This document shows, piece by piece, positions 22,789 to 24,967 of a DNA stretch of 64,000 nucleotides. Within the stretch, counting starts at the first letter, position 1. Every line of letters begins with the position of its first letter. Both the position numbers and the translations under genes were made by a program. This DNA is from Sneathiella limimaris. Its GTDB lineage: Bacteria; Pseudomonadota; Alphaproteobacteria; Sneathiellales; Sneathiellaceae. The stretch lies in NCBI RefSeq assembly GCF_012932565.1, contig NZ_JABBYJ010000002.1, forward strand, positions 372,001 to 436,000, given 5' to 3'. The notes beneath the pieces are model-generated. The model saw only the letters and a program-made list of their open reading frames with translations. It was not told where the DNA came from and made no database searches.

Positions 22789-22912
22789 ACTGCGTTTTCA
22801 CAAAATCGCCAAGATTATCGTCGATACTGTAGAAATCAGGAGCTTATGGCAACCTGGCTTTTAAAAAGCAGGATCCTAAATGAGCTTGCTGGAAAAGGAG
22901 AGGGTTAAATCG

Positions 22913-23791
22913 ATGAGTAATATACCACTACCTACCGTTTCGCCGGAAGGCGGACTGTCACGATACCTCCAGGAAATCCGCAAATTTCCAATGTTGGAGG
23001 CGGATGAAGAGTATATGCTGGCGAAAGCTTGGAAAGAGCGCGCTGACGCTGATGCTGCCCACAAGATGGTAACCAGCCATTTGCGGCTTGTTGCGAAAAT
23101 TGCCATGGGATACCGAGGTTACGGTCTTCCCGTTGGCGAGCTTATCGCAGAAGGCAATGTTGGCATGATGCAAGCGGTAAAACGGTTTGAACCTGAAAAA
23201 GGCTTTCGTCTGTCTACTTACGCTATGTGGTGGATCCGGGCTGCAATCCAGGAATACATTCTTCGCACTTGGTCCCTCGTGAAAATGGGAACAACTGCAG
23301 CCCAGAAGAAACTGTTCTTCAATCTTCGGAAAATCAAAGGCCAGATCGAAGCCATTGACGAAGGGGACATGCGCCCTGATCAAGTGGCCGAAATCTCCAC
23401 TAAGCTTGGTGTCTCCGAAGAAGAAGTCATCAACATGAACCGCCGTCTGACCGCGCCGGATCATAGCCTCAATTCTCCTATGCGGGCCGACACCGAAGGG
23501 GAATGGATGGACTGGTTAGAGGACGAAAGTCCTGATCAGGAAACCGTCTATGCGGAAAATGAAGAACTGCAGAGGCGCAAAGCTATGCTGGCTTCAGCAA
23601 TGGACTGCCTTAACGAACGTGAAAAGCATATCCTGACAGAACGTCGCCTTCGGGATGACCCGCTCACTCTTGAGGATCTCAGTCAGGAATATGGAATTAG
23701 CCGTGAGCGGGTTCGTCAGATCGAAGTCCGTGCGTTCGAAAAGCTACAGAAGGCTGTCAAAAGCCGAGCTTTCGAAGAGCGTGTAAATTAA
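22913..23791 (+). CDS. rpoH: RNA polymerase sigma-32 heat-shock factor
   Basis: 292 residues. Alternative sigma factor that directs RNA polymerase to heat-shock promoters. Region 2 contains AEGNVGMMQAVKRFEPEKGFRLSTYAMWWIRAAIQEYI, and the RpoH box AAQKKLFFNLRKIK distinguishes it from sigma-70. Region 4 has SREYGISRERVRQIEVRAFEKL-type sequence (about 255-285). The start at 22913 has AGGAGAGG nine bases upstream, better than the ATG at 22880. Lies 124 bases after the pseudouridine synthase gene. Confidence 0.96.
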   Translation: MSNIPLPTVSPEGGLSRYLQEIRKFPMLEADEEYMLAKAWKERADADAAHKMVTSHLRLVAKIAMGYRGYGLPVGELIAEGNVGMMQAVKRFEPEKGFRLSTYAMWWIRAAIQEYILRTWSLVKMGTTAAQKKLFFNLRKIKGQIEAIDEGDMRPDQVAEISTKLGVSEEEVINMNRRLTAPDHSLNSPMRADTEGEWMDWLEDESPDQETVYAENEELQRRKAMLASAMDCLNEREKHILTERRLRDDPLTLEDLSQEYGISRERVRQIEVRAFEKLQKAVKSRAFEERVN

Positions 23792-23840: not shown

Positions 23841-23862
23841 CCGGTTAATGTCACTTAACCGG
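23841..23862. terminator. Hairpin at the rpoH/nikR convergent junction
   Basis: Perfect eight-base stem CCGGTTAA / TTAACCGG around TGTCAC. It overlaps the last codons and stop of the nikR-like gene. T-rich sequence follows on the plus side. Possible two-way terminator between the convergent genes. Confidence 0.5.
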
Positions 23863-24252
23863 TATTATATTCATCCGACCGTAGCTGGTGCCCGACATAG
23901 ACATTATTTCATGTCCTCTTTTATGAACCACATCGCCAGCCCCTCTCAACAACGTCGCCTCAACATAACTATGAGAATCTATCGGCATCTGAAGTGTTGA
24001 GACAATCAAATCTGGACTAAACCGGATCCGGTCAGAGGGTTTCGAAGGACCACTCTTTTCAGAATATTTTACAGTATATGATATGCAGCCGATGCAATTT
24101 TGATCAGCGCCAATGGTTTCCTGTTCATGGGACAACATATGACGAACAGCGTCACGAATACCTTCCGATCGGTTTGCATATCCATTTCGTTCAAGATAGG
24201 CATCGAATTCCGCCAACAATTCATCTTCAACCGTAATTGTTACACGTTCCAA
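23851..24252 (-). CDS. NikR-like ribbon-helix-helix regulator lacking canonical nickel ligands
   Basis: 133 residues, the same length as E. coli NikR. The TTG start at 24252 follows GGAGGTGATT and gives MERVTITVEDE, matching the operator-reading strand MQRVTIT of E. coli NikR (Arg, Thr, Thr contacts kept). The ACT-like sensing domain aligns without gaps, but the four nickel ligands (E. coli His76, His87, His89, Cys95) correspond to Arg, Gln, Pro and Tyr (segment STLQMPIDSHSYVE). Divergent from the nickel transporter gene, with a NikR-type operator between. It probably represses that gene; how it senses nickel, or what it senses, is open. Confidence 0.85.
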   Translation of the reverse strand: MERVTITVEDELLAEFDAYLERNGYANRSEGIRDAVRHMLSHEQETIGADQNCIGCISYTVKYSEKSGPSKPSDRIRFSPDLIVSTLQMPIDSHSYVEATLLRGAGDVVHKRGHEIMSMSGTSYGRMNIIPVK

Positions 24253-24287
24253 AATCACCTCCGATGTTGCGCTTGCGAAAAAGATGC

Positions 24288-24315
24288 GTATGATAATTTT
24301 TATAAAACATCATAC
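24288..24315. promoter_or_regulatory. NikR operator, GTATGA-N16-TCATAC
   Basis: GTATGA at 24288-24293 and TCATAC at 24310-24315, separated by exactly 16 bases. This is the E. coli nik operator arrangement. It lies 32 bases before the HupE/UreJ ATG and 35 bases before the nikR-like start, so one site could control both directions. Confidence 0.88.
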
Positions 24316-24347: not shown

Positions 24348-24911
24348 ATGAAACGCGTTTTTCTGACATCCAGCCTTCTATTACTTGCCACAGCATCACC
24401 AGCACTGGCACATACCGGCCATGCTGTTGCAAATGATTTTTCAACTGGTTTTCTGCACCCTTTCTTCGGCCTTGATCATATTCTGGCAATGATCGGCGTT
24501 GGTCTGCTGGCCACTCAGTATGAAGGCAAATTGAAAATGGTATTGCCAGCCACCTTCGTTGCGGTAATGGCATTGGGTGGTTTCCTTGGACTATCTGCAA
24601 TGCAAGTACCGTTTATGGAGCAAGGCATTCTAGCTTCTGTTATCTTGCTCGGTGCGATCCTCGCTTTTGGAAAGAAACTTCCTCTCATTGCTTCAGGTGC
24701 TTTGGTCGCAATCTTTGCCCTATTCCACGGCGCTGCCCATGGTGTTGAAATGCCACTGGCTTCCACCTTCGCAGTCTATGGAGCAGGCATGATGGTCGCG
24801 AGCACTCTATTGCACGCTGCTGGCGTCGCATTTGGTTACGCAGCACCTTTCATGATCCGCTATGCGGGTGCAGGATTTGCACTTGTTGGAATGGGTCTTG
24901 CCGCAGCCTAA
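24348..24911 (+). CDS. HupE/UreJ-family nickel (or cobalt) transporter
   Basis: 187 residues with a cleavable signal (ending SPALAHTGHA) and about six membrane helices. The family motif HPFFGLDHILAMIGVGLLA carries the metal-binding His and Asp (HPxxGxDH), and a second HGAAHGVEMP is present. Imports Ni2+ for urease or hydrogenase. GGGAG precedes the ATG. The NikR operator lies just upstream and a strong terminator just downstream, so it is a single-gene unit. No urease or hydrogenase genes are in the window. Confidence 0.92.
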   Translation: MKRVFLTSSLLLLATASPALAHTGHAVANDFSTGFLHPFFGLDHILAMIGVGLLATQYEGKLKMVLPATFVAVMALGGFLGLSAMQVPFMEQGILASVILLGAILAFGKKLPLIASGALVAIFALFHGAAHGVEMPLASTFAVYGAGMMVASTLLHAAGVAFGYAAPFMIRYAGAGFALVGMGLAAA

Positions 24912-24938
24912 TTAAAACGGTTAAAGAACAAAATATAG

Positions 24939-24967
24939 AGCCCTCTGGAAACAGGGGGCTTTTTTTT
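24939..24967 (+). terminator. Rho-independent terminator of the nickel transporter gene
   Basis: Eight-base stem AGCCCTCT / AGGGGGCT (one G-T pair) around GGAAAC, followed by an uninterrupted T-run of seven beyond the stem's own T. Confidence 0.93.

Follow-up and report, generated by a model that had tools for sequence, protein, structure and literature searches.

The stretch of Sneathiella limimaris DNA analysed here (the window, 64,000 nucleotides, to whose numbering all positions refer) encodes a homologue of NikR, the textbook nickel sensor, in which the DNA-binding RHH domain is kept, all four ligands of the high-affinity nickel site are replaced, and a perfect NikR operator lies between the gene and a divergent nickel transporter gene, hupE. 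We tentatively favour, at a little short of an even chance, the interpretation that this NikR is blind to nickel but continues to bind its operator, working as a metal-independent autorepressor.

The locus is summarized in Table 1. The open reading frame program had begun nikR at the first GTG, giving a frame from 23851 to 24258 on the minus strand. The start is probably the TTG at 24252, two codons further on, because the Shine-Dalgarno sequence and the start positions are conserved across the genus: in an intergenic alignment, all four genus orthologues have GGAGG and then TTG or GTG immediately ahead of Glu-Arg. From this TTG the protein has the 133 residues stated in a first-pass annotation made from the window alone. 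Its score exceeds the cut-off of the NCBIfam NikR model NF002815 (97.6 bits against 83) but not that of TIGR02793 (82.6 bits against 175); it matches Pfam RHH_1 (PF01402) in its N-terminal domain with 29 bits (cut-off 20.5) and matches NikR_C (PF08753) in its C-terminal domain marginally, with 23.7 bits (cut-off 22). A PDB search returned Escherichia coli NikR as the best solved relative, matched over its full length (E = 2e-14). The window protein is a NikR homologue by descent and by its operator. The first-pass annotation had also based this identity on the strand ERVTIT "as in E. coli"; the identity holds, and the E. coli protein in fact reads QRVTIT.

Table 1. Features of the nikR-hupE locus (positions in the window).
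Feature	Position	Strand	Remarks
rpoH-type sigma factor gene, named by sequence	22880..23791	+	flanks the locus in the genus; synteny anchor
nikR homologue, 133 aa (probable TTG start)	23851..24252	-	RHH domain kept; four nickel ligands replaced
Shine-Dalgarno GGAGG of nikR	24258..24262	-	kept in 4/4 genus orthologues
Putative hupE promoter	24267..24294	+	TTGCGC 24267-24272, 16-base spacer, TATGAT 24289-24294
NikR operator GTATGA-N16-TCATAC, perfect	24288..24315	strandless	between nikR and hupE
hupE, HupE/UreJ-family transporter, 187 aa, intact	24348..24911	+	divergent from nikR
Terminator-like hairpin and T-run, 3' of hupE	24937..24962	+	

The operator, GTATGATAATTTTTATAAAACATCATAC, has no mismatch to the consensus, as the first-pass annotation had it, and also fits the extended form GTATGAT-N14-ATCATAC; all other sites in the window have at least three mismatches. 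It is the only perfect match to GTATGA-N15/16-TCATAC in the 3.66 Mb genome, where the reversed control pattern gives none, and this genome encodes a single NikR and a single HupE/UreJ protein. The hupE product matches PF04955 essentially end to end (169 bits, residues 11-183 of 187). The TATGAT of the putative hupE promoter overlaps the left half-site of the operator and is probably the -10 element, judging from its conservation in relatives that lack nikR (see below); a consensus promoter scan did not list this promoter. The genome also encodes urease and its accessory genes, adjoining an apparent urea-type ABC transporter, and with this nickel enzyme present nickel import is plausibly needed. 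No NiFe hydrogenase was found in the genome, and a search for nickel superoxide dismutase gave no match there, but none in the control genomes either.

In two MAFFT alignments, the residues equivalent to His76, His87, His89 and Cys95 of E. coli NikR are Arg, Gln, Pro and Tyr, which upholds the assignment made earlier from an ungapped comparison. The corresponding codons are CGG, CAG, CCG and TAT, as opposed to CAY, CAT, CAT and TGC in the relatives, and the square-planar His3Cys high-affinity nickel site is absent. The His-His-His-Cys set is present in 95 of the 98 aligned NikRs, the exceptions being the window protein, L018 and the Caballeronia sequence L129. Because the alignment with the genus orthologues contains no gaps, the ligands have not been displaced to other positions, and a realignment that would recover them elsewhere in the protein is ruled out. 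A frameshift or sequencing error is likewise unsupported, the change being specific to one domain and the frame open.

The losses in the C-terminal domain extend beyond the ligands. The window protein keeps 7 of 23 family-conserved positions in this domain (Tyr58, Asp91, Glu97, Leu101, Gly103, Gly124 and Pro130) versus 12 of 14 in the RHH domain; also gone are Tyr60, His62, Arg65, Leu67, Leu71, His78, His79, Ala112 and Val121. The segment equivalent to the His76 region, SEKSGPSKPSDRIRFSPD, contains a glycine and prolines, and its GPSKP interrupts the stretch that bears His76. AlphaFold places a helix of four residues here (74-77) versus one of ten (68-77) in the orthologue from G005, both with low confidence. 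The overall model (pLDDT 82) retains the RHH domain and the NikR C-domain fold, and the modelled C domain superposes on that of nickel-bound E. coli NikR with TM scores of 0.78-0.85 (0.84-0.85 for three of the four chains). It is very unlikely that the protein still senses nickel through low-affinity or non-classical sites. Such sites do exist in addition to the classical one in E. coli and Helicobacter pylori NikR (PMC7055735), the potassium-site side chains Glu30 and Asp34 are present in the alignment, and nickel control would still make sense in a genome that keeps urease and hupE; nonetheless, the lost His62 is a strictly conserved C-domain residue, and no new histidine cluster was found in the window protein.

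Among 26 genomes of the order searched, nikR occurs in four, all of the window's genus (the window, G005, G009 and G024), and these four share the rpoH-nikR-hupE locus. Each has a perfect operator with both half-sites, 27-28 bp long, with a spacer of 16 in the window and G005 and of 15 in G009 and G024; both spacers lie inside the known range, since the enterobacterial NikR site spans 27-28 bp (Rodionov et al., 2004; PMC545781). In G005, both hupE and rpoH appear frameshifted (L022:5400-6040 and L165); the proximity of two broken genes suggests assembly errors rather than real pseudogenes. The NikRs of G005, G009 and G024 all keep His-His-His-Cys, and the protein tree groups the window NikR with them (98% support) on a long branch. 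With three congeneric, syntenic orthologues bearing the ligands, the loss is derived and confined to the window's own lineage, after its split from these relatives. The first-pass annotation was thus right that the ligands are gone and the operator kept; its proposal that this characterizes a subfamily fails for the genus, and a true ligand-less subfamily lies elsewhere.

The change is concentrated in one domain. In the RHH domain the window protein is 72-79% identical to its genus relatives, compared with 77-86% among the relatives themselves; in the C domain the corresponding values are 28-41% and 66-85%. Columns invariant in the three relatives are altered in the window at 3 of 32 RHH positions versus 28 of 52 C-domain positions (Fisher p = 5e-5), and Tajima counts for the C domain are 30 versus 0-1. 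A codon model rejects neutral evolution for the whole window gene (p = 2e-5) and for the C domain alone (p = 0.013); since dS is saturated, the sizes of omega on the genus branch are uninformative, and we rely, cautiously, on no more than the rejection of omega = 1. Despite the saturated synonymous sites, the frame contains no stop or frameshift, and neutral walks to the observed C-domain divergence, in which indels were not counted, stayed free of stops in 6-7% of trials. The rejection of neutrality, the normal constraint on the RHH domain, the conserved ribosome-binding site and the intact operator favour a gene that is still functional.

These data bear on the possibility that we are seeing decay in progress, in which the lineage no longer needs nickel to control hupE, the nickel domain is wearing away and nikR is on its way to loss, with the operator and RHH domain as remnants or still in weak use. 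We consider this somewhat unlikely, but it has a concrete basis. In G010, G015 and G018, nikR is missing from the same locus and hupE comes straight after rpoH, so the genus does lose nikR; moreover, the conserved C-domain positions that have gone from the window protein include many that are not ligands, losses that could equally count as loss of function against the nickel-blind interpretation, and the neutral walks leave an open frame under decay unlikely yet possible. The same nikR-less loci also bear on the operator. A left half resembling GTATGAT is still recognizable in them, probably because its TATGAT is the hupE -10 element, whereas their distal TCATAC has been lost, the best match having three mismatches. 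Retention of this half in the window is what continued NikR binding would predict. That half-site, the intact ribosome-binding site, the normal rate of evolution of the RHH domain and the unbroken frame all speak against decay, as does a parallel ligand-less clade that is maintained by selection.

This clade emerged from a NikR_C survey of the phylum (51 of 397 genomes) in which weak matches were then inspected; a profile scan of genome contigs, centred on E. coli NikR, had returned 80 mostly canonical relatives that are not close to the window protein. It comprises 16 genomes of another alphaproteobacterial family, f164 (L184-L199), in which His87 is replaced by Ser or Thr, His89 by Pro and Cys95 by Ser, with Leu near the position of His76. 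The clade is under purifying selection, with dN/dS of about 0.19 in the RHH domain and about 0.17 in the C domain. In 14 of the 16 genomes, nikK and nikM adjoin nikR and are divergent from it (these two names follow the literature; neighbours of the other homologues are named from sequence), and the operator is perfect in 11 and has at most two mismatches in 14. Almost no variation is seen in the former ligand region (GRL-RHD-T...PLDH-TS), which is the strongest argument that this clade, at least, binds something. A protein from another family, L179 (G698), joins this clade with 100% support and has the site GTATGC-N16-GCATAC. Two members, L192 (G1022) and L194 (G820), have lost their operator together with the adjacent nikK-nikM, and in their RHH domain Arg28 has become Leu; this joint loss suggests release from the old target. 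Derivation of the window NikR from the nikK-linked clade is ruled out by the tree, in which the two fall into separate clades (100%); their ligand losses are thus of independent origin.

Altered ligand positions also occur in scattered homologues. L180 (G753), like the window protein, carries Gln in place of His87 and Pro in place of His89, and lies between TonB-receptor-like and HupE-like genes; in L181 (G579), residues 87, 89 and 95 are Leu, Cys and Met, and the gene adjoins a peptide/nickel-type ABC transporter. A separate NikR-like class with the motif EVISS-HV-L and altered ligands is found in L169 (G289), L176 (G664) and L177 (G632), the G289 copy lying near an ABC substrate-binding protein. 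In G682 (L168:3304-4688), a NikR-like protein that keeps His87 and His89 but has Arg and Thr in place of the other two ligands is encoded divergently from creatininase-like and glutamine-synthetase-like genes, with a perfect operator, GTATGACGAATTGTTGCAAACGTCATAC, between them, so that the nickel operator here stands beside genes seemingly unrelated to nickel. Viral contigs queried with the window protein alone yielded no relative; queried with the alignment, they yielded one full-length canonical NikR (HHHC; L061, IMGVR_UViG_3300044998_001280).

We also weighed whether the ACT-like C domain now binds a different signal, a metal or a small molecule, and switches the same operator in response to it. 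Several observations are consistent with such a new effector: the modelled C-domain fold is kept, neutrality is rejected for this domain, the former ligand region of the f164 clade is as nearly invariant as a specific site would be, and the G682 protein with its perfect operator suggests non-nickel roles. The conservation around the old site in the f164 C domain suggests a specific task and counts against a bare scaffold. Among candidate residues for another metal, the histidines of DSHS and HKRGHE do not recur together in any relative found, and indeed no candidate is shared between the window protein and any relative. The cysteines of NCIGC, proposed as new ligands in the first-pass annotation, are not supported in that role, because both also occur in ligand-bearing relatives (QCVGC, KCVGC). 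In the window protein, moreover, the His76 segment is broken by GPSKP. A new effector for the window NikR is rather unlikely. Sensing of something else, as originally suggested, is possible, though no more likely than metal-independent repression or slow loss of function.

The nickel-blind interpretation is supported by the derived nature of the ligand loss, the confinement of change to the C domain, and the retention of the ribosome-binding site and start, the distal half-site and the modelled fold. It also has a precedent in the f164 clade, which is ligand-less yet under selection and keeps both the operator and a nickel transporter. In the mechanism we propose, the window NikR would bind the operator with no nickel in the classical site. 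The operator overlaps the probable hupE -10 element, and bound NikR would cap expression of both nikR and hupE, thereby freeing hupE from nickel-specific shut-off. The C-terminal domain would serve mainly as a tetramerization scaffold, keeping two RHH dimers as far apart as the 28-bp site requires. In H. pylori NikR, the affinity of the apo form for DNA is orders of magnitude below that of the nickel form (PMC7949043; PMC9860126), nickel raising it through a shift of the conformational equilibrium (PMC7949043), and a ligand-less window NikR would consequently need compensating changes; none was identified in it. A shift to nickel-independent binding is nevertheless plausible, because some single mutations in H. 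pylori NikR strengthen apo binding (PMC9860126).

The window protein resembles E. coli NikR (PDB 1q5v, 2hza) in length, RHH domain, C-domain fold, operator sequence and spacing, and a nickel-importer neighbour, and differs in lacking the four high-affinity ligands and in having hupE rather than nikABCDE as its partner. With its genus relatives it shares the locus, ribosome-binding site, start, operator half-sites and RHH domain; unlike it, these keep HHHC, and their C domains are diverged from that of the window. The f164 clade and L179 share with it the absence of the four ligands, Pro in place of His89, a retained operator and an adjacent nickel transporter, whereas the f164 clade differs in its separate origin, its nikK-nikM partner and its conservation across many species. 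A Methanothermobacter NikR homologue has been suggested, from its gene neighbourhood, to respond to zinc (PMC3087415). Like the window protein, it would be a NikR homologue for which a signal other than nickel is proposed; it differs in being archaeal and in adjoining a zinc transporter, and the passage describing it makes no mention of ligand loss. One review singles out NikR as the sole RHH-family protein regulated by a metal (PMC7055735). A literature search, conducted largely outside subscription papers, found no description of a ligand-less NikR.

More broadly, it is conceivable, if on present evidence doubtful, that NikRs have more than once discarded the nickel site but retained the operator and a nickel-transport partner, the resulting regulators tying importer genes to a signal other than nickel at the classical site, a new effector bound by the ACT-like domain, with the window protein and the nikK-linked clade representing two origins. 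For annotation, the window protein, on the evidence of its sequence, ought not to be recorded as a nickel-responsive NikR, given that the defining His3Cys site is absent. NF002815 applies the nickel-responsive label to the window protein as well as to the f164 clade, and nickel regulons predicted from name or operator alone are consequently unsafe; membership in the NikR family is no longer by itself proof of nickel sensing. Ligand-less NikRs that keep their operator separate DNA targeting from nickel sensing, two properties normally taken as one, and thus offer natural mutants for studying how nickel binding reaches the DNA-binding domains.
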